Below the pieces are notes generated by a model. The model had not been told where the DNA came from, searched no databases, and saw nothing but the letters and a program-made list of their open reading frames with translations. 42,056 nucleotides of DNA from Candidatus Accumulibacter contiguus. GTDB lineage: Bacteria > Pseudomonadota > Gammaproteobacteria > Burkholderiales > Rhodocyclaceae. Shown here piece by piece: positions 1 through 11,239 of this stretch (the stretch's first letter is position 1; every line of letters starts with the position of its first letter). The translations under genes were made by a program, and so were the position numbers. Location of the stretch: assembly GCF_012940005.1 (NCBI RefSeq), contig NZ_SPMX01000030.1, forward strand, positions 1-42,056. The letters are read 5' to 3'.

Positions 1-306
1 ACAACAAGACTTCGGCGCAAAAATACCTCTGCGACAACCTCAATGCCCTGGCCGTCCATGCCGCCAGTGAATCCCTCGATCCCAATACCCGCGCCACGCT
101 ACTTCATCAACCGCGGCGACACCTTCTCTCGCATCAAGCGCACCCTCGGACGCTGGCTCCTCCAGGGCATCAATGCTCTCGACAATGTCGCCTCCGTCTT
201 CGACGAACTCATCAAGAACCTCGTCCAGATAAAACCAAACAGGTCATCTCCCAGAAATTTCACCAAAAAACCACATTTATCACATGCTTACAAAAACGGG
301 GTATGA
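1..306 (+). pseudogene. Possible broken coding fragment at window edge, unrecognised
   Basis: Two adjacent plus-strand frames look protein-like but do not join. The frame beginning at base 3 reads plausibly (KYLCDNLNALAVHAASESLD) to about base 105. The frame containing bases 103-306 then reads FINRGDTFSRIKRTLGRW and LDNVASVFDELIKNL. One extra base near 100-110 would link them into one acidic, helical segment of roughly 80 residues. The last 20 or so codons to the stop at 304-306 look non-coding. I do not recognise the family. The piece is cut by the window start, has no visible RBS, and overlaps a PIN-gene remnant on the other strand. It could be a decayed transposon or cassette gene, or chance. 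Confidence 0.22.
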
Positions 307-446
307 CTATGTTCTGATAGGTTGAGAGCATTGAGCTCCCACCAAGCCAGCGTTATTTGCTGATGGGCAGCGCCAATAATGGTCTTGCTGGGGCGTGCCG
401 TCAGATAGCTAATGACGGAGGTCTCAACGTAGACTTTGCGCTTCAT
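288..446 (-). pseudogene. Truncated PIN-domain toxin gene, N-terminal remnant
   Basis: From the ATG at 446 the minus strand reads MKRKVYVETSVISYLTARPS and continues to about residue 37 (LAWWE). It matches the intact PIN toxin gene at 2270-2752 almost residue for residue, with conservative changes. The similarity then stops, and a 52-codon frame ends in unrelated sequence at 288. Only the first PIN acidic residue (E in VETS) remains, so the product cannot be an active nuclease. The upstream DNA also resembles that of the intact gene, including a shared motif around GTCCCCTA. This looks like the broken end of a duplicated or recombined PIN cassette. Confidence 0.75.
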
Positions 447-2116: not shown

Positions 2117-2280
2117 ACTGGGGGTACAGACGGTGGAGGCACAAATGGGTGCCCAGCCGCAATATGCTCAGCCTCTGATTTCTTCAGGTCTTCATAAATT
2201 GCACGCGGGTCGTAGCCAAACTTGGCGGCGTGGGTATCTCGAATGGCTCGTACTTCATCGACGATTTCGTCATTCAACAT
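2074..2280 (-). CDS. Small antitoxin-like partner of the PIN protein
   Basis: This 68-residue protein begins MLNDEIVDEVRAIRDTHAAK and continues with FGYDPRAIYEDLKKSEAEH. It is a short, acidic, mainly helical protein of the type encoded directly after this subgroup of PIN-domain genes. Its ATG at 2280 overlaps the end of the PIN gene by 11 bases, implying coupled translation and a toxin-antitoxin pair in toxin-first order. No DNA-binding motif is evident. The C-terminal tail (PNSSLQRTRFARR) is translated from the attC, because the stop codon lies inside the recombination site. An earlier in-frame ATG at 2355 would add 25 unlikely residues that overlap the PIN gene. The antitoxin role is inferred from position. 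Confidence 0.7.
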   Translation of the reverse strand: MLNDEIVDEVRAIRDTHAAKFGYDPRAIYEDLKKSEAEHIAAGHPFVPPPSVPPVPNSSLQRTRFARR

Positions 2281-2752
2281 TTTCTTCTCCAAGAAGTTCT
2301 TCCGGGGTGCAGATAAACGGAAGGAACAAACCAACCTGTTCCAAGTAAGCAGCAATGCCTCTTTGTATCTCTGGGTTTGCGATGTGCCGACAGTTCCATG
2401 TCAGCAAATAATCCACGCCATTGACTGTGGCGACCGCAATGTGGAGTGCATCTTCCACCGCTTTGGGTGGGAGGATTCCTTGCCTCACCAAAGACTCCGC
2501 AATATTGAGCGCCTGCTCGGTGATTAAGAGCAAAGGCACGTCATTTAACACTGCCAACCGCTTTTGGGCGGCATCTGGGTCGCCAGCGCCACACTCACGC
2601 AGGACCGACTCTGACACCAACAGTTCGTACTGGTTGCGTGTTTCCCACCACGCCAGAGTAATTTGCTGGTGGGCGGCGCCGAGGATGGTCTTGCTGGGGC
2701 GAGCCGTCAGGTAGCTGATGACGGATGTTTCAACGTAGATTTTGCGCTTCAT
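2270..2752 (-). CDS. PIN-domain protein, VapC-like toxin
   Basis: This 160-residue protein has PIN-fold features in order: an N-terminal strand with the first acidic position (IYVETSVISYLTARPS, residues 4-19); a conserved glutamate after a strand-helix (VSESVLRECG, about 46-55); and a late acidic segment (KAVEDALHIAVATVNGVDYLLTWNCRHI, about 98-125) with E101, D102 and D115. PIN proteins are metal-dependent RNases, and in VapBC-like pairs they cleave tRNA, rRNA or mRNA. The first acid is Glu rather than Asp, which is normal in this ETSVISYL subgroup. It overlaps the antitoxin-like gene by 11 bases. A truncated near-copy lies at 288-446. Both genes share the 3.3-kb third cassette with the NACHT gene, with no attC between them. 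Confidence 0.85.
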   Translation of the reverse strand: MKRKIYVETSVISYLTARPSKTILGAAHQQITLAWWETRNQYELLVSESVLRECGAGDPDAAQKRLAVLNDVPLLLITEQALNIAESLVRQGILPPKAVEDALHIAVATVNGVDYLLTWNCRHIANPEIQRGIAAYLEQVGLFLPFICTPEELLGEENVE

Positions 2753-2803: not shown

Positions 2804-3020
2804 TGGTTTCCAAGATCGCCCCAACCTCCTTGACGTGGGCTGGCGATACGACTGCACGATAAAGCCCGGTTTCGATGCGCCTCAGAATCAGGAACACCGC
2901 ATCCGTTTCAAGGCGTATGCGAAGCTGATTCTGGTCATCAAATGGGCGGCAAAGGACGCAGACTCGTGTGCTTGGCGGCTCATTGCTTGAAGTTTCCTGA
3001 TGGACTCCCTGATATGTCAA
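2790..3020 (-). pseudogene. Remnant of a second, different PIN-domain gene
   Basis: The 76-codon frame contains RVCVLCRPFDDQNQLRIRLE and then TDAVFLILRRIETGLYRAVV and SPAHVKEVGAILE. This is the N-terminal half of a PIN subfamily normally beginning like YLDTCVLCRPFDDQ, with RIRLE and a VSP-H--E segment. Here the opening strand with the first catalytic Asp is lost: residues before R19 (TSSNEPPST) look unrelated. The frame stops at 2790, before the C-terminal acidic residues. It therefore encodes only about 58 PIN-like residues between two breakpoints and is almost surely inactive. It is unrelated in detail to the ETSVISYL type beside it, so two PIN families have decayed here. Confidence 0.6.
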
Positions 3021-3065
3021 ACTTTTCCATTCTCCCGGCAGAGCCGGGGGATTTCCTATTTTTTG

Positions 3066-5357
3066 TTAATCGACCTTGGGTCGCGACTTCTCCATAGAAC
3101 CTTTGTAGAGCTCTGTCAGATAGGTTCTAAGTCCAGGGTTGTTCTGTCGCGCCTTCTTGATTCTCTTTGCAAGCCTCGTGACATGCTCCAACTCAATCTT
3201 GTCATCCTGAACCACATGCTGAACTCCAAGCTTCACGACCCACGGAAGAGCACCCAACTCCTGCGTAGTCAGGAACTTGAAGGTGTCCTTCTCGCTTAAG
3301 CCGGCCCGAACTGCGTCGATGAAGAAGCTTGCGATGGCGCGCTCTTCATCCTTTAGATCTAGATCGCATTGGCACTGTATCTGCGCAGTTTCCAGTGCCT
3401 TCTTAAAGTACTGATACTCAAGACTATCCCGCAAGCAATAACTAAGCGTGGCGAAGAATTGCAGTTCAGGTAGAACCGCAAGCTTAGACTCCACTTGCCC
3501 CGATCGCACCCCGAGAAAGTGCCTTGTCATCTCCAGTACAACTCTATAGACAGCCCGTTCGATGTGGGCGTATTCGGTTTGGTATGCGGAAAGCATCAGA
3601 TTTCCGAAATTGAGCAACCGAAGCATCTTTTCACGCTCAGTGCCGAGCATGAGATCAGAGAGCTTGTCGATTCTCGTTCCCGCGTCTTGAATCAGACCCA
3701 GATAGAAGTATTCTACCCCCAGCCAGTAGCCTTCGAATGGATTCGTGAACGGCGCACTTCTTCCGTGATTTTCCTTCTGGTGCAAGGCAAGCAGAAATTC
3801 CGCCAAACTTCTGTGACGGAAGGAAAAGATCTGCCTTTCGCGATTCACAATTACGACTTCCGAGCGCTGTTCAATTCGCTTAAAGATGTCAACAGGCGGG
3901 GGGAGACCCTCCCGTGTTCGTGTGTAATCCTCCAGCATCTGCATGACTTCATTAACATTTAGCTGCTGAAGCTCATTGTCAAGCATGTACTTGGCAACTC
4001 GAGAGAGCACAGTAACCACAACGGGATACTCTCGCTCTGTCATTAGTCCCTTGCTTATATCCCAGCGGCCAAGCGCAAGTTCAACATATTTCGAATACAA
4101 CTCCGGAAGCGTCTGCGGAATCTCCTTGGCATTTGCATTTAACACTCTTGCCAACAAAATTGCCGTCATTGGCGTTCTAGGTATTGCCCGCAACAGCGTG
4201 GATCTTCCAAGATCCAACCGAAGTTTTTCGCTAATGTCAAGTGAACTACAGTTGTGTTGCACAACCTTAACAAGCTGGTCAAACGACAACGGAAGTATGC
4301 GAAATCGCGGGCAGTGCCGCAGAATCTCCTCGCCCTCTTCAATTGTCCAAACCAGCCTAGATCCGATTGCTACGGTGAGATTGCTCGTAGCTCGGACCGC
4401 ACTCGCCACTGACTCAATCGCGCCAAGTAGAGAACCATCCGTCGCACTGCGAACTTCGTCTACCCCATCTAGGAAGATCAAGATCCGTCCGTCTGCGGCA
4501 CCTTCTAGGGCAGTTTGCAGATCGTTGACTAATCGCGTTAGCCCCGCCTGAACGTCATCTGCAATCTCCGAAAGATGCACGAGCTTGGGGATGGTTTTGC
4601 TCTTCTGAAATTCATCTGGCTCGCACAGCGCTTTCATGTGTTTGCGGAAGAGCGTGGTCTTTCCGGACCCCATACCGCCTTCTACCAATAGAATTCGATG
4701 CTGCTTGAGCGCACCAGCTAGAGTCGTTCGTAGTGACTTGTTATATCTTGCCACCTTCTGACCTGGGCGAGTAGGCTCGACTTCATAAAGTTCTTGGGCT
4801 ACGTCAAGGCTAATGCCTGGCGCCCCGAGGGTGCTATAGGATTCTGCCTTGACGATCTCCACCAACGTGGACTTCAAATAGGTGCCCAGCCCAGCCGGAA
4901 TCTCGTTCCAGAAGTGCGGGTAAATCTGCTCAACTATCTGAGCCAGGCGCTCGCCGCCGACGAACTTAATGTTTCGAGACTTGTATTCTTCAAAGATCTT
5001 TCGCTCGGCTCCACCAGAGATGCTACCGTTACATACAATCCAGGTTTCATTGAGGTAAATCTTCCGCTTTGCCCCGTCAAAGAACCTCTCAACTGCACAT
5101 TCTTCTATCTGCCGCTTGACATCAGCATGGTCTTGTCTGATGTTTCCGCACTTGACAATAACGCCAACATAGTTTTCATCCCCAAGTGTTGGGTCTGAGC
5201 GCGCCAATACAAAATCGGCACCCATTTCACCATTACCATGGGTGTACTCGAAGCGTGAAATAGTCTTGTCGTTCGTAAATACTGCCCTCAACAAGGGATG
5301 CAGGTCGCGAACCTCGTCGGTCAAAGACCGCAACTTTTCAAGCTTCCACTGTTCCAA
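3066..5357 (-). CDS. NACHT-type STAND NTPase with N-terminal nuclease-like domain (cassette 3)
   Basis: This 763-residue protein has three parts. Residues about 1-165 resemble a restriction-endonuclease fold: GADFVLARSDP (D48) followed by YVGVIVKCGNI (K69). The D...xxK spacing fits PD-(D/E)XK/Mrr-like nucleases, but the position two before the Lys is I67, not E or Q. Residues about 205-420 form a P-loop NTPase: Walker A GGMGSGKTT (227-235), Walker B RILIFLDGVDEV (291-302), then an IGSR sensor segment. This layout is typical of NACHT STAND ATPases. The helical remainder (FSFRHRSLAEFLLALH in the winged-helix region, then about 230 residues) would be the sensor. Bacterial NACHT and Avs-type STAND proteins are known anti-phage sensors, so abortive defence is the likely role. 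It is very large for integron cargo and lower in GC than the chromosomal genes. Confidence 0.82.
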   Translation of the reverse strand: MEQWKLEKLRSLTDEVRDLHPLLRAVFTNDKTISRFEYTHGNGEMGADFVLARSDPTLGDENYVGVIVKCGNIRQDHADVKRQIEECAVERFFDGAKRKIYLNETWIVCNGSISGGAERKIFEEYKSRNIKFVGGERLAQIVEQIYPHFWNEIPAGLGTYLKSTLVEIVKAESYSTLGAPGISLDVAQELYEVEPTRPGQKVARYNKSLRTTLAGALKQHRILLVEGGMGSGKTTLFRKHMKALCEPDEFQKSKTIPKLVHLSEIADDVQAGLTRLVNDLQTALEGAADGRILIFLDGVDEVRSATDGSLLGAIESVASAVRATSNLTVAIGSRLVWTIEEGEEILRHCPRFRILPLSFDQLVKVVQHNCSSLDISEKLRLDLGRSTLLRAIPRTPMTAILLARVLNANAKEIPQTLPELYSKYVELALGRWDISKGLMTEREYPVVVTVLSRVAKYMLDNELQQLNVNEVMQMLEDYTRTREGLPPPVDIFKRIEQRSEVVIVNRERQIFSFRHRSLAEFLLALHQKENHGRSAPFTNPFEGYWLGVEYFYLGLIQDAGTRIDKLSDLMLGTEREKMLRLLNFGNLMLSAYQTEYAHIERAVYRVVLEMTRHFLGVRSGQVESKLAVLPELQFFATLSYCLRDSLEYQYFKKALETAQIQCQCDLDLKDEERAIASFFIDAVRAGLSEKDTFKFLTTQELGALPWVVKLGVQHVVQDDKIELEHVTRLAKRIKKARQNNPGLRTYLTELYKGSMEKSRPKVD

Positions 5358-5834: not shown

Positions 5835-5904
5835 GCATAACGTCTGAATTCACCGGCGTTGCGCGGCTCTATCGCGCAGCGTCCGGTGGAATGAGAAGTT
5901 AGAA
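5835..5904 (-). other. attC recombination site of cassette 1
   Basis: Minus-strand order: TTCTAAC (R'', 5904-5898), CATTCCACCGGACGC, a central GCGCGATAGAGCCGCGC stem-loop, GCCGGTGAATTCAGAC, and GTTATGC (R', 5841-5835). Length is 70 bp. R'' exactly complements GTTAGAA, the core at the attI junction (7408-7414), which confirms that the 5841-7413 segment is one cassette. Confidence 0.9.
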
Positions 5905-5913
5905 ATCGCAGGG

Positions 5914-7374
5914 TTACATGAGCGAATCATCGCTACGCCCAGTGGTCTTTTGATGAGCTAGAACTTCAAACTTCTCATCGACTACCGCGCCTACAACAAT
6001 TGAATCTATGGGGTACTTGGCAAGCAGTCGCGCTAACCTTTCATATAGCTCGGGTTTCCTTTGTGATTCAATAATTTCAAAGAAGTCGTCTTCAGGAATT
6101 GCAATAACCAAAGTAAATCCAGAGAGGCGCCCCTCGTTGATTTCTAGGTAACCGCGAAGGAGCCCATTTACTACAATGGGGGACATCAGCATTCGGTCGA
6201 AGCTACGTAGATACTTGACTTCGTATCCATGTACCTCTTCATCACTTCGAACCAGAAAGTCCGGGAAGCCGCGATGGTTTGCCTCAACCAATTCACCACG
6301 GCGAGATAGCCAAACTTCGACACATTGCTCAATAAGGCGCGTGTCAATGCGATCGCTAAGGAAGCGCGATGCGAGGTCGCCTGCGCTGGAGGTGGAAAAT
6401 TGCCGCGACTGACCTTGAAATTCACGCACATTGCGCGAGTTTTCCGGAGTGAATAGTGCAACTTGTTTGATTTCGGCGACCGACTCGTTTGATACAGAGG
6501 CAGTTGAGTATTTGTTTGCATGCTCCACAAACTGTACTGACGAGTACATCCAAAAAAGATCAACCCCGCCTTCCCTGCCAATTTCTCGAATCAGTTCTGG
6601 ATGGGGGCCAACGGTCTTTCCTTGCTCTCGCCACCACCAATCTTCTTTTCTGTCGGCAGTTATTAGCAGCACAGTCTTGATTTGTGAATTCTTCACATGC
6701 TGAATCAACTGACGCCAGAGAATTAGATCGCCAAATTTTCTCTGGTACTTGATGTGATCGAAAATAAATGTAGCTTCGTTTGGATTCTTTTCTTTATCGA
6801 CATCTGCAAATCCGGGAGGAATCTTTTCCTTAAATCGATCTTCTCCCCCAGAAATGAGTTCATCCAACTCTGCTTGGGAGGCGGGCCCAGTACCGACGCG
6901 ATTTTCTAAAAGTCCATCGAGACGCTGACGTACTGGGTCGGACGCTGATATGTCAAGTTGAGCGTTATGAGTAGTCTTAATCGCTTCAAGTAACTGGTCA
7001 TTCGCCTTTTCCAATTCGGACAATAGCGGCTGGGACTCAATGCCCAAGCCTCGCTTGTCGATCTGAAGTCCCTCTACCTTGGCTTTAATATCGTCAACTA
7101 GCTCACTGGTGGCCGAAAGCGCGTCTTCTGTAGCCTTGCGCTCACTTGCAATTACAGTCAGTCGCCGACGCTGAAACTCAAGCGCTACTTGGTGAGGAAT
7201 CCAAAGGCGCTCCTTAAGTAGTTCTAGCACCCCCAATAGCTCGTCTCCTGCTGTTGTCGGCAATCGATACAAATTCAACAAAACGTTTGTATCCAAAACA
7301 ATCACGGCCTCTTTCCAGAGTTGTTCGTATTGCTCTGCGCTTGGTGGGTAATAGCCAGAAAAGCTCGTCTTCAT
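5914..7374 (-). CDS. PIN_8-domain protein with C-terminal PD-(D/E)XK-like segment (cassette 1)
   Basis: This 486-residue protein is the first cassette gene, next to attI and so best placed for expression. Residues 1-280 match the PIN-like (PIN_8, formerly DUF4935) family: FSGYYPPSAEQYEQLW, then VIVLDTNVLLNLYR (D28) and WIPHQVALEFQRRR (E66). A charged helical insert (about 75-185) follows, then FGDLILW (D216) and LLITADRKEDWWW (D241, D245). These acids would bind the metals of an RNase site. After a linker (about 290-335), residues 340-480 contain FPDFLVRSDEEVHGYEVKYL. D372, E385 and K387 give a PD-X12-EXK pattern of restriction-like nucleases. Two nuclease-type modules in one chain suggest a toxic effector, plausibly anti-phage. 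The C-terminal domain call rests on this motif alone. The gene ends just before the attC. No partner gene is present. Confidence 0.8.
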   Translation of the reverse strand: MKTSFSGYYPPSAEQYEQLWKEAVIVLDTNVLLNLYRLPTTAGDELLGVLELLKERLWIPHQVALEFQRRRLTVIASERKATEDALSATSELVDDIKAKVEGLQIDKRGLGIESQPLLSELEKANDQLLEAIKTTHNAQLDISASDPVRQRLDGLLENRVGTGPASQAELDELISGGEDRFKEKIPPGFADVDKEKNPNEATFIFDHIKYQRKFGDLILWRQLIQHVKNSQIKTVLLITADRKEDWWWREQGKTVGPHPELIREIGREGGVDLFWMYSSVQFVEHANKYSTASVSNESVAEIKQVALFTPENSRNVREFQGQSRQFSTSSAGDLASRFLSDRIDTRLIEQCVEVWLSRRGELVEANHRGFPDFLVRSDEEVHGYEVKYLRSFDRMLMSPIVVNGLLRGYLEINEGRLSGFTLVIAIPEDDFFEIIESQRKPELYERLARLLAKYPIDSIVVGAVVDEKFEVLAHQKTTGRSDDSLM

Positions 7375-7407
7375 TTGATGGTATCCAAGAGTTCGAGGCG
7401 TTGTGAT

Positions 7408-7450
7408 TTCTAACGTGAAGTGGACATCCTACTTGACGATTTACTTTGCG
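7408..7450 (-). other. attI insertion point and flank
   Basis: The core GTTAGAA on the minus strand (plus-strand TTCTAAC, 7408-7414) marks the junction between attI and the first cassette. The recombination point lies between G and TT. The 34-base gap to the first cassette gene start is short and has no other core. The rest of attI, including any direct integrase-binding repeats, should extend toward intI; I cannot define its right edge from sequence. Confidence 0.65.
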
Positions 7451-7460
7451 TCATTATACT
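7433..7460 (+). promoter_or_regulatory. intI promoter
   Basis: TTGACG (7433-7438) and TATACT (7455-7460) are separated by 16 bases, a near-consensus sigma-70 promoter firing rightward into intI. It lies 52 bases upstream of the intI ATG. The -10 overlaps the LexA-type box at 7457-7476, the expected layout for SOS repression. Confidence 0.75.
7453..7458 (-). promoter_or_regulatory. Candidate cassette promoter -10 (Pc), divergent
   Basis: The minus strand reads TATAAT at 7458-7453, a perfect -10 hexamer facing the first cassette gene (start 7374). It overlaps the intI -10 on the other strand. The best -35 is TTGCCG at 7484-7479 with a 20-base spacer, longer than ideal. A shared divergent promoter would supply cassette transcription and put it next to the same LexA box. 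Confidence 0.4.
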
Positions 7461-7476
7461 GTACTCATGAACAGTT
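7457..7476. promoter_or_regulatory. LexA (SOS) box controlling intI
   Basis: TACTGT, eight bases, ACAGTT matches the CTGT-N8-ACAG LexA operator core perfectly, with good flanks. It covers the end of the -10 and the presumed start site of the intI promoter, so LexA would block integrase expression until DNA damage. SOS control of integrase is established for many integrons. Confidence 0.85.
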
Positions 7477-7512: not shown

Positions 7513-8532
7513 ATGGACACGTTCACTAAAAGTTCGGGCAATTGCGTCAATGCCGGCGGCGCTTCTCGACCTCCCAGGCGGCTGCTGGAACAGCTCAGCG
7601 ACCGCATCCGTGTCAAGCACTATAGCATACGGACCGAGCAGGCTTATAGCGAGTGGGTGCGACGTTTCATTCTCTTCCACGGCAAACGTCATCCGCGGGA
7701 AATGGGAGCAAAAGAGGTGGAGGCATTTCTGACTCACCTTGCCGTGGCGGGGCGTGTTTCTGCATCCACCCAGAACCAGGCGAAAAGCGCTCTATTGTTC
7801 CTTTACCAGGAAGTGTTGGAGACTGAGCTGCCGTGGCTGGATGAGGTCGAGTCGGCGAAGGCTACGAAACGTCTGCCGGTCGTTCTGACCCCGGCAGAAG
7901 TTCAGCGCCTGCTGGCGCCGATCGAAGGAACCGTGGGTCTGATCCTCCGACTGCTCTACGGTACCGGGATGCGCATCATGGAGTGCCTGCGGTTGCGGGT
8001 GAAGGACGTGGACTTCGCTCGCGGGGAGATCCTGGTGCGGGAGGGAAAGGGGTTCAAGGATCGGGTGACGATGCTGCCCGAAAAGCTGCTTGTTCCACTC
8101 AGCGAGCATCTGGCGCGGGTAAAGACGCTGCACGAAGCGGACCTCGCTGACGGTTTTGGCGAAGTGTATTTGCCATGGGCGCTCGAACGAAAATACCCGA
8201 ACGCCGCGCGTGAATGGGCCTGGCAGTATGTGTTTGTCGCCGCCAAACGATCGGTCGATCCGCGCTCGGGGGCAGTGCGCCGACACCACGTGGGAGCGCA
8301 GAGCATCCAGCGTGCGATGCGCGATGCGCTGCGCCATGCCGGAATCAGCAAGCCAGCGACCCCACACACGCTTCGCCACTCGTTTGCCACTTCCCTGCTC
8401 GAAAGCGGCTACGACATTCGCACCGTGCAGGAACTCCTGGGCCATGCGGATGTGAGCACGACGATGATTTACACGCATGTGCTCAGGCGCGGCGGGCGAG
8501 GTGTTCGGAGCCCGTTCGACGCCCTGGTATAG
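7513..8532 (+). CDS. intI: Integron integrase IntI (tyrosine recombinase)
   Basis: This 339-residue protein recombines attI and attC sites to insert, excise and shuffle cassettes. An N-terminal SAM-like DNA-binding domain (about 22-115, with [20 protein letters not shown]) precedes the catalytic domain. Visible active-site residues are R154 (GTGMRI), K179 (EGKGFKDR), H285 and R288 ([10 protein letters not shown]), H311 (LLGHADV) and nucleophile Y320 (MIYTHV). Residues about 209-245 ([20 protein letters not shown], then [13 protein letters not shown]) form the extra patch III segment that separates IntI from XerCD. The protein looks intact. A strong SD (AGGAGGTG, 7501-7508) supports the ATG at 7513. 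The gene points away from the cassettes, the standard integron layout. The extended N-terminus (about 20 residues) has no evident motif. Confidence 0.95.
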
Positions 8533-8745: not shown

Positions 8746-9645
8746 CTACCTTTCCCCCCGCGCCGCCAGATAAATCCCGAGCAGCAGCATCACAAACCCG
8801 ACTCCCTGCCATAGCGCGAATGCTTCCCCGAAAAAGACCCACGCCAGCATCGCACTTCCCACCGGCTCCCCGAGCGTCACCACCGCAATGAAGGTCGGCG
8901 AAACATGTTTGAGCGACCAGTTGTACGAAGTGTGGCCGAGCAACTGCGGGCCGAGCGCCATGCCCAGGGCCACCAGATAAGCGGCGTCGCTGTATCCGGT
9001 CAAGGGCGTGCCGCTGCTCTGACAGGCAAGAACCAGCAGAATCGCGGCACTGCCGTAGGCGAGCCAGACATACGCCGGCAGCGGCAGGCTGGCGCGCAGG
9101 CGGCGACCGATCAGGAGATACGCCGAGAAGCACCAGCTTCCCACAATGGCGAGGAGGTTGCCGAGCAGTGGATTGCTGCCGGGGGCGCTTGCCCGGCTGT
9201 CGCTCCAGAAGATCAGTCCGCTGCCGGACAGGGAAATCACGATGCCGACGAGCATCAGGCGGCTCGGGCGGTCGCCAAAAAGCAGGAACGAAGCGATGCC
9301 GACCCACAACAGATTGGTCGTCACCAGCGCGGTACTGCTGGCCACCGAGGTGTATTCGAGCGAGGTGATCCAGGTGGCGAAATGCAGCGCCAGGAAGAAG
9401 CCCGCGCCGCAGGTCAGCAGGATCTGCCCGCGGCTCAGCGTACGCAGTGTCCGGCTCGACTGCCAGAGGGCGATCGGGGTGATGATCAGCGCCGCGAGGC
9501 CGAGGCGCAGCGTGGCGATGGTCAGGGACGGCAAGCCGTAGCCCTGGGCAAAGCGCGCCAGAATGGCGCCGAAGGAGATCGCCAGCAGGCCGACGCCGAG
9601 GATCAGAAAAGGGAGCCAGCGCGGCGGCGCCTTGCCGCTGTCCAT
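8746..9645 (-). CDS. EamA/DMT-family inner-membrane transporter
   Basis: This 299-residue membrane protein has about ten hydrophobic segments arranged as two EamA repeats. The first starts near FLILGVGLLAISFGAILARF and the second near LAIVGSWCFSAYLLIGRRLR. Typical repeat-end features include LVTTNLLWVGIASFLLFGDR and the second-repeat counterpart VTLGEPVGSAMLAWVFFGEA. Drug/metabolite transporters of this family usually export amino acids or other metabolites; the substrate cannot be read here. It starts five bases after livF stops, so it belongs to the livHMGF transcript and could relieve amino-acid overload or exchange a product. A longer frame on the same strand (8681-9751) is out of frame with these helices and was rejected. 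intI ends 213 bases away, convergently. Confidence 0.88.
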   Translation of the reverse strand: MDSGKAPPRWLPFLILGVGLLAISFGAILARFAQGYGLPSLTIATLRLGLAALIITPIALWQSSRTLRTLSRGQILLTCGAGFFLALHFATWITSLEYTSVASSTALVTTNLLWVGIASFLLFGDRPSRLMLVGIVISLSGSGLIFWSDSRASAPGSNPLLGNLLAIVGSWCFSAYLLIGRRLRASLPLPAYVWLAYGSAAILLVLACQSSGTPLTGYSDAAYLVALGMALGPQLLGHTSYNWSLKHVSPTFIAVVTLGEPVGSAMLAWVFFGEAFALWQGVGFVMLLLGIYLAARGER

Positions 9646-9650
9646 GAGGC

Positions 9651-10379
9651 TCAGGTCGCCGTCGCGGCGTGACCGCCTTCGAGATAGGCGGCGTGTACCT
9701 CCGGGTTGGCCAGCAGCTCCCGGCCGCTACCCGACAGGATGATCTGACCATGTTGCAGCACGTAGCCGCGGTGCGCGACGCGTAAGGCGTGGTGCGCGTT
9801 CTGTTCGACGAGCAGGAGGGTCATGCCGTGCTCGCGGTTGAGTTCGCGGACGATCTGGAAGATTTTCTTGATGTACAGCGGTGCCAGGCCGAGCGAGGGT
9901 TCGTCGAGCAGCAGGAGTTGCGGCCGGCTCATCAGCGCACGCGCGATCGACAGCATCTGCTGTTCGCCACCCGAGAGCGTGCCGGCGCGCTGCTGGCAGC
10001 GCTCCTCGAGAATCGGGAAGAGCGTGTACATGCGTTTCAAGTCGACCGCGAAGTTCATCTCCTCGCCGAGCACGGCGCCCATCTGCAGGTTCTCCATCAC
10101 CGTCATGCGTGAGAAGATGCGCCGGCCTTCGGGAACCAGCGCGATGCCGCGGCGGGCGATTTCATGCGTCGGCAGACTGGTGATGTCTTCGCCGTCGAAG
10201 ACGATGCGTCCGCCCGATGCGCGCGGCTGGCCGAAAATCGCCATCATCAGCGTCGACTTGCCGGCGCCGTTGGCCCCGATCAGGGTGACCACTTCGCCGA
10301 CCTGCACGTCGATGTCGACGCCGTGCAGCGCATGGATGTGTCCGTAGTGGGCATGCACGCCCGACAGTTGCAGCATCAT
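9651..10379 (-). CDS. livF: Branched-chain amino-acid ABC transporter ATPase LivF
   Basis: This 242-residue cytoplasmic ATPase is one of the two nucleotide-binding subunits powering a hydrophobic/branched-chain amino-acid importer. Walker A GANGAGKST is at 35-43, the ABC signature LSGGEQQ at 135-141 and Walker B LLLLDEP at 155-161, followed by the switch His region (LLVEQNAHHAL). Length and the short insert between Walker A and signature fit LivF rather than LivG. Its ATG overlaps the livG stop by four bases (ATGA). It is fourth in livH-livM-livG-livF. The solute-binding protein lies about 5 kb upstream, across putA and a toxin-antitoxin module. Confidence 0.95.
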   Translation of the reverse strand: MMLQLSGVHAHYGHIHALHGVDIDVQVGEVVTLIGANGAGKSTLMMAIFGQPRASGGRIVFDGEDITSLPTHEIARRGIALVPEGRRIFSRMTVMENLQMGAVLGEEMNFAVDLKRMYTLFPILEERCQQRAGTLSGGEQQMLSIARALMSRPQLLLLDEPSLGLAPLYIKKIFQIVRELNREHGMTLLLVEQNAHHALRVAHRGYVLQHGQIILSGSGRELLANPEVHAAYLEGGHAATAT

Positions 10380-11239
10380 CGCCGGGCCTCCGGAGGCAGG
10401 GCTTCCTTGGCATGCGACTCGTCGGCCTGCAGTTCGTCGGCATCTTCCTCGCCGAGATAGGCCTTGATCACGTTCGGATCGCGCTGGATCTGCAGCGGCG
10501 GGCCTTCGGCGATCTTGCGGCCGTAGTTGAGGACGCAGATGTGGTCCGAGACATTCATCACCACGCTCATGTCGTGCTCGATCAGCAGGATGGCGATGCC
10601 TTCGTCGCGCGCCAGGTGTTTGAGGAGTTCGTTGAGTTCGGCCGATTCGCGCGGGTTGAGGCCGGCCGCCGGTTCGTCGAGGCAGAGCAGGAGCGGGTCA
10701 ACACAGAGTGCGCGGGCGATCTCGATGCGCCGCTGCATGCCGTAGGGCAGGTCGCCGGCGGCGGTGTCTGCCTGGTCGATCAGATGGAGGTGTTTGAGCC
10801 AGCCGACCGCCTTGTCCATCGCTGCCGCTTCCGCGCGGCGATAGCCGGGCAAGCCGAAGAGGCCGGCCAGCGAGAAACGCGAGGCGTGCTGCAGGGCGTT
10901 GTGCTGCGCGACGATGAGGTTTTCGAGGACGGTCATCTTCGGGAACAGGCGGATGTTCTGGAAGGTGCGCACCACCTTGGCTGTGCGCGCGACCTGGTGG
11001 CTGGCGAGCTGTTCGAGGCGCATCACGCCGCGTTGCGGGTGGTTGAGGCGGACGCTGCCTTGGCTCGGCTTGTAGAAACCGGTCAGGCAGTTGAAGAAGG
11101 TGGTCTTGCCGGCGCCGTTCGGTCCGATGACGCCGGTGATCTGGCGGGCGGCGACGTCGAGCGACAGGTCGTCGATGGCCAGCAGGCCGCCGAAGCGCAT
11201 GCTCAGGCGCTCGACGCTCAGGAGCGGGGCGGCGCTCAT
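10376..11239 (-). CDS. livG: Branched-chain amino-acid ABC transporter ATPase LivG
   Basis: This 287-residue ATPase has Walker A GPNGAGKTT (39-47), signature region LPYGMQRRIEIARAL, Walker B LLCLDEPAAGLNP and switch IEHDMSVVM. The 'AAGLNP' after Walker B and the long segment between Walker A and the signature are LivG hallmarks. The start is set at 11239 (MSAAPLLSVERLSMRFGG), which overlaps the end of livM by four bases. A much longer upstream frame exists but is only the wrong-frame image of livM. The C-terminus has an extra acidic tail (EEDADELQADESHAKEALPP) absent from many LivG proteins. It pairs with LivF on the cytoplasmic face of LivHM. Confidence 0.95.
   Translation of the reverse strand: MSAAPLLSVERLSMRFGGLLAIDDLSLDVAARQITGVIGPNGAGKTTFFNCLTGFYKPSQGSVRLNHPQRGVMRLEQLASHQVARTAKVVRTFQNIRLFPKMTVLENLIVAQHNALQHASRFSLAGLFGLPGYRRAEAAAMDKAVGWLKHLHLIDQADTAAGDLPYGMQRRIEIARALCVDPLLLCLDEPAAGLNPRESAELNELLKHLARDEGIAILLIEHDMSVVMNVSDHICVLNYGRKIAEGPPLQIQRDPNVIKAYLGEEDADELQADESHAKEALPPEARR

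Follow-up and report, generated by a model that had tools for sequence, protein, structure and literature searches.

A one-protein PIN defence has been described as DS-3 (DefensePredictor, PMC13092281). According to the accessible part of that paper, the PIN domain of DS-3 is split along the chain, catalytic mutants lose defence, there is no cognate antitoxin, and the authors suggest autoinhibition. The protein considered here is encoded in the window, a stretch of 42,056 nucleotides forming one contig of a 5.02-Mb, 167-contig genome. It resembles DS-3, as far as the published description permits a comparison, in being a one-protein PIN without an antitoxin and in the split layout of the PIN domain in its AlphaFold2 model, whereas the same part of the DS-3 description mentions no second nuclease fold. 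The first-pass annotation had called the protein an undescribed defence effector. A literature search, which covered few subscription journals, found no paper on PIN_8 joined to an endonuclease fold among those listed, but "undescribed" is too strong for one-protein PIN defence, already published as DS-3 (PMC13092281). Of two further papers, seen in part, one (PMC6102843) concerns a 41-aa PIN-like locus in Staphylococcus that is not relevant to the window protein, and the accessible part of the other (PMC10952713) contains nothing on PIN. Compared with VapC of the VapBC pairs, the window protein is much longer, has a large helical insertion and an extra C-terminal domain, and has no antitoxin partner in its cassette; a plain VapC toxin was rejected because the cassette (7413-5841) holds no partner gene. 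Like other PIN_8 proteins (PF18476), it has the whole domain and the four acids, but PIN_8 proteins examined outside its group have other C-termini, whereas its subgroup carries a domain of predicted PD-(D/E)XK fold.

The open reading frame at 5914-7374 (stop included), which had been reported with no strand, does exist and encodes 486 aa, but on the minus strand; read on the plus strand, the same interval is full of stops. All seven residues singled out earlier (D28, E66, D216, D241, D372, E385 and K387) are found at those numbers in the translation. PIN_8 matches aa 24-261 (6592-7305, minus strand; delimited by the Pfam profile, AlphaFold2 and alignment) with E = 2.8e-61 and 207.8 bits against a cut-off of 26.1; beyond it, Pfam lists just PIN_12 and PIN for the protein at E up to 10. 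D28, E66 and D216 are each identical in 31 of 31 aligned PIN_8 proteins; at position 241, 28 of them have D and three have E, hence an acid throughout. From what is known of the PIN superfamily, we take these four residues to be catalytic. In the AlphaFold2 model, long helices (aa 61-103 and 114-138) separate the part containing E66 from that containing D216. No NCBIfam or PADLOC model matched the window protein at E up to 10, and a sequence search against the PDB gave three matches (one coiled-coil-type protein, E = 0.27 or worse).

To collect homologs, we searched several sequence sets. One scan of the genome collection yielded five homologues over the full length (L001-L005, with 54-66% identity). 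In the plasmid collection 65 records matched, of which three (H1, H2 and H27) were examined; a single record, L008 (42% identical), covers 80% or more of the query. IMG/VR contributed 17 loci, including five full-length ones (L024-L028, 51-54% identical); an IMG/VR scan using the single window protein found none, nor did the search of phage records, and the C-domain profile offered no sufficiently conserved stretch for scanning IMG/VR. Whole-genome searches added L010 and L019, more distant PIN_8 proteins with a recognisable C-terminal domain (C-domain). We removed duplicates of the window gene (L006, L009, L016, L022), of the L010 gene (L012) and of the L020 gene (L023), as well as sequences identical to L035 (L036, L039) and L032 (L038). 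Kept outside the tree and the tallies were L021 (divergent, 252 aa), L007 (27% identical, with one stop) and L011 (a weak C-domain match with no PIN protein among the listed ORFs). The distribution is sparse. The full-length profile detected two of 399 genomes of the order, namely the window's own and G368 (PIN part only), and the C-domain profile three of 398 genomes across the phylum: that of the window, G447 (L010) and, by a weak match, one in which no PIN protein accompanies it. PIN_8 at E ≤ 1e-10 occurs in 10 of 398 genomes of the phylum and in 0 of 14 control genomes; the Escherichia coli PIN_8 gene L082 is present in one of 5,426 E. coli genomes, its own record.

The C-terminal region was predicted by AlphaFold2 to form a separate domain (about aa 343-480; 5935-6348, minus strand), preceded by a low-confidence linker (aa 309-342; 6349-6450, minus strand; pLDDT < 50) that is also fast-changing by rate comparison. 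Its secondary structure elements follow the order alpha-beta-beta-beta-alpha-beta, so that the predicted domain has the core topology of PD-(D/E)XK nucleases. The active-site acid, E and K are all present: D372 precedes strand 373-377, and E385 and K387 lie within strand 380-388, that is, at canonical places. The four best PDB matches of the C-domain model are presumably PD-(D/E)XK folds, a class that by fold includes XisH, AF1548, Hjc and LmuA; acetyl-CoA carboxylases make up 11 of the 23 PDB matches listed on the C-domain. Structure prediction and fold search thus agree with the earlier suggestion that the C-terminal region has a restriction-endonuclease fold, which we regard as predicted, and the model supports the two-domain architecture.

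The D/E/K motif by itself is weak evidence for a nuclease. When the 182 C-terminal residues are shuffled 20,000 times, the pattern PD-x(10-20)-[DE]xK arises in 1.7% of cases, and two of 60 neighbour proteins contain it; requiring hydrophobic flanks lowers these figures to 0.075% and one of 60, and the looser D-x(8-30)-[DE]xK appears in 48% of shuffles. Searching ten C-domains against Pfam, we found no family reaching its cut-off; VRR_NUC was listed for L003 only (11.8 bits versus a cut-off of 23.8), and up to E = 10 it did not match the C-domain of the window protein. In profile-profile comparison with hhalign against VRR_NUC, eight C-domains gave 57%, the D, E and K positions being in register, all 14 gave 28%, the window protein with L001-L004 gave 38.9%, and C-domains that have lost E and K gave, on their own, 1.6%. 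The VRR_NUC profile was made from 8 of 11 rows and that of Mrr_cat from 24 of 26 (L059 and L062, with incomplete loci, were skipped, and the weaker L067-L070 left out). Mrr_cat gave 0.9%, level with PIN-half controls (0.1-0.9%), a negative result that means little because Mrr_cat versus VRR_NUC failed too (0.2%). In a search of the C-domain profile against the PDB the best match was a designed helical protein (E = 0.0005), which we took as chance.

Invariance of D372, E385 and K387, set beforehand as a check on the nuclease assignment, fails. Of the 14 full-length proteins that have the C-domain, five keep the whole triad (the window protein, L002, L003, L008 and L019, the last scored by eye and pattern, as its MAFFT columns are off by two), and at least one residue is missing in the other nine; six lack both E and K. 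In L001, the closest relative (66% identical), K387 is replaced by A; L004 has S for D and R for K, and L010 has R for K. The three positions read E-I-S in L005 and L024, E-V-T in L026 and D-V-T in L025, L027 and L028. The triad was therefore rejected as a family signature. The C-domain shares with VRR_NUC and other PD-(D/E)XK nucleases the predicted core fold and, in these five members, the triad, yet unlike them it stays below Pfam cut-offs in the ten members scanned, has unconserved catalytic residues and is fused to PIN_8. The presence of K in the distant L008 and L019 suggests that it is ancestral; if so, inspection of the tree places triad losses on at least four separate branches.

The two halves of the protein also differ in their rates of change. 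On one topology, total tree length is 18.3 substitutions per site for the C-domain versus 5.35 for the PIN half, a 3.4-fold difference. Summed branches of the C-domain versus PIN are 0.82 versus 0.075 for L025/L026 (about 11 times), 0.27 versus 0.042 for L027/L028 (about 6.5 times) and 1.06 versus 0.17 for L005/L024 (about 6 times). Five of the seven pairs used for dN/dS were saturated. For L027/L028, which share 96% identity in the PIN half and 78% in the C-domain, dS is alike in the C-domain and PIN half (0.41 and 0.37), whereas dN is 0.113 versus 0.017 and omega 0.28 versus 0.05; for L025/L026 omega is 0.20 versus 0.03, less reliable because dS exceeds 1. As judged from these sequences, the C-domain is still under constraint, but less so than the PIN half. 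Near the window the C-domain excess is small (dN of 0.34 versus 0.15 with L001, and 0.38 versus 0.21 with L002), and this counts against a sensor role for the C-domain.

To place the fusion among PIN_8 proteins, we considered the PIN tree and the tails of other members. In the midpoint-rooted tree the 12 close members with the endonuclease fold form one group (ultrafast bootstrap 95); L010 and L019 belong to a neighbouring group with L029, which has no recognised endonuclease-fold domain. Because L010 and L019 group apart from the others and beside a protein without the domain, exchange or loss of the PIN_8 tail has probably happened repeatedly. Elsewhere in the family the tails appear by eye coiled-coil-like (L013) or winged-helix-like (L014, L033), and L015, L017 and L020 have in common a C-terminal domain that looks beta-rich, again by eye. 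The tails of L018 and L083 (PIN_8 gene of L083 at 2998-4719) are tandem repeats of the DSLRDREEAMRRAGIS type, one of the two proteins being encoded on a 5.2-kb Klebsiella plasmid, and further PIN_8 proteins have tails of unassigned sequence.

Integron-borne phage-defence cassettes were reportedly described by Kieffer et al. and Darracq et al., and the window likewise has a defence-like single gene in an integron cassette. An attC search with positions counted by hand delimits cassette 1 at 5841-7413 (minus strand), 1573 bp, 93% of which is the PIN_8 gene. The first-cassette position given by the annotation is confirmed, the gene is alone in this cassette, and the attC at 5904-5835 (minus strand; TTCTAAC...GTTATGC) closes it. 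On the minus strand, G|TTAGAAATC starts at 7414, and GTTAGAAATC at the cassette start (7414-7405) is a 10/10 complement, counted by hand, of GATTTCTAAC in the cassette's own attC (5907-5898). Such matching ends are as expected of one excisable circle. Divergent from the cassettes, at 7513-8532 on the plus strand, lies a 339-aa tyrosine recombinase, which is an integron-type integrase as judged from its place beside attC sites. The locus thus has the hallmarks of an integron cassette, an attC with matching ends beside attI and the integrase. Behind the L001 gene, an attC-like site aligns with the window attC with a score of 59 versus 46 for the best of 300 shuffles; behind the genes of L002, L003 and L004 (scores of 21, 29.5 and 28.5) no attC was found. 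From these alignments, a further genus, that of L001, probably also has the gene as a moving cassette.

Relatives occur next to other mobile elements too. On the viral contigs L024, L026, L027 and L028, an integrase-like ORF of 382 aa (a tyrosine recombinase by eye) precedes the gene, these ORFs being 79-95% identical to that of L026, and remnants of it are present in L005 and L025. The L005 locus is a tRNA-Thr island, in which the remnant and the gene are flanked on one side by the tRNA-Thr and on the other by a repeat of the 3′ end of this tRNA (53 of 54 bases identical). The viral contig L028 also encodes a 591-aa P-loop protein (9247-11019), KAP-like by eye. The first-pass annotation suggested that recurrence in defence islands be checked. 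Among L001-L005 it is clear only for L002, where a Lamassu operon (LmuA, LmuC and LmuB at 4358-866, opposite strand) lies 3.6 kb from the homologue; several of the others have neighbours of metabolic or transport type: peptidase S51 (L001), MFS (L003), a SelA-like protein (L004) and a short-chain dehydrogenase (L005). In PADLOC scans of 60 neighbour proteins of L001-L005, 46 families matched, and 25 were listed with one protein each. The matches placed are LmuA, LmuB and LmuC in L002 and, more weakly, PDC-M24B and PDC-M43B in L001 and PDC-M03A in L003; AbiEii (2.9e-106), mad3, mad8 and AriA, among others, matched neighbours of L001-L005 without being placed at a particular locus. Separate scans of neighbours matched 2 of 10 and 4 of 10 proteins. 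The homologue in L002 is preceded by a gene for an ImpB/MucB/SamB-type polymerase and followed by a DnaJ-type gene; in L003 a HipA_C gene lies upstream, and in L008 a DUF4297 "anti-phage-associated" gene is about 7 kb off. Genes for a Y-family polymerase stand upstream of two distant homologues (L002, 6222-7817; L008, 1830-2912), possibly by coincidence. Overall, the recurrence of this one-gene unit in mobile and in part defence-like contexts is supported.

Taken together, our best reading, to which we give a probability of about one half, is that of a self-contained one-gene effector against phages or other mobile elements, in which PIN would be the weapon and the C-domain would mainly sense. 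This division is suggested by a PIN active site that stays constant beside a C-domain that is variable yet constrained. The PIN_8 half would be a conserved nuclease, most likely a metal-dependent RNase, which would stop the infected cell by cleaving RNA of the host or the phage. As the cassette holds no antitoxin, the protein would have to keep itself inactive in cis before infection. The C-domain probably inherited its fold from an active nuclease; it has changed faster than the PIN half and has repeatedly lost catalytic residues, and its main task would now be recognition or triggering, through binding to a nucleic acid or protein of the phage. A defence role is plausible. We would go further only tentatively, at somewhat less than even odds: an ancestral PD-(D/E)XK endonuclease may have become fused to a PIN_8 RNase, kept its nucleic-acid-binding fold, repeatedly shed catalysis and turned into an arms-race recognition module that switches PIN on, the whole travelling as a complete immune unit of one gene, within integron cassettes and next to the integrases of prophages. 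If so, a DNA-cutting fold would have found a second use as detector in an immune protein that cuts RNA, in a small one-gene system whose sensor is open to study through natural variants differing mainly there (L027/L028), and integron cassettes would gain one more testable defence candidate.

The earlier proposal of two nuclease modules in one chain stands as far as the PIN_8 half and the predicted C-terminal fold are concerned, but two nucleases cannot be the general mechanism, because nine of the 14 proteins are without the full triad. A narrower form, with PIN cutting RNA and the C-domain cutting DNA at least in triad-complete members and the lost forms being derived exceptions, is a serious if rather unlikely alternative. 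It accords with the canonical places of D372, E385 and K387, with the in-register hhalign match of eight C-domains to VRR_NUC and with retention of the triad in the most distant members, so that it is probably ancestral, but has to accommodate the A at K387 in the closest relative, the substitutions in L004 and L010 and the six proteins without E and K. Since its own triad is complete, the window protein, like the four other such members, may still cut DNA through the C-domain.

PIN domains often act as toxins, and toxin-antitoxin pairs are among the cassettes of integrons. Together with the location of the gene in an integron cassette and, in relatives, on other mobile elements, this would fit a stability or addiction module that safeguards the integron or prophage and does not defend the cell against phage. 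We consider this improbable, since the cassette is a single gene with no further ORF of at least 40 aa outside it and since a protein of 486 aa is not a small VapC. Slightly less probable still is an ordinary RNA-processing or stress nuclease with no defence role, against which stand the mobile contexts and the patchy distribution of PIN_8 among the phylum and control genomes.

The remainder of the window adds several minor observations. A LexA-like box, CTGTACTCATGAACAG, lies at 7459-7474 upstream of the integron integrase, which may thus be SOS-controlled. A second attC was found at 5473-5394, and none closing a third cassette was detected in the attC search of the window. The second cassette (5840-5400) has no minus-strand ORF longer than 46 aa, and both its ends are attC-like. 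Behind the second attC, a gene at 3066-5357 (minus strand) encodes a 763-aa NACHT protein with an NCH1 C-terminus, the N-terminus of which (GADFV...VIVKCG) resembles, by eye, another endonuclease-type motif. Finally, a 132-bp repeat, 84% identical between its copies at 337-468 and 2643-2774, covers the starts of a 160-aa ORF (2270-2752, minus strand) and of its 52-aa truncated copy (288-446, minus strand).
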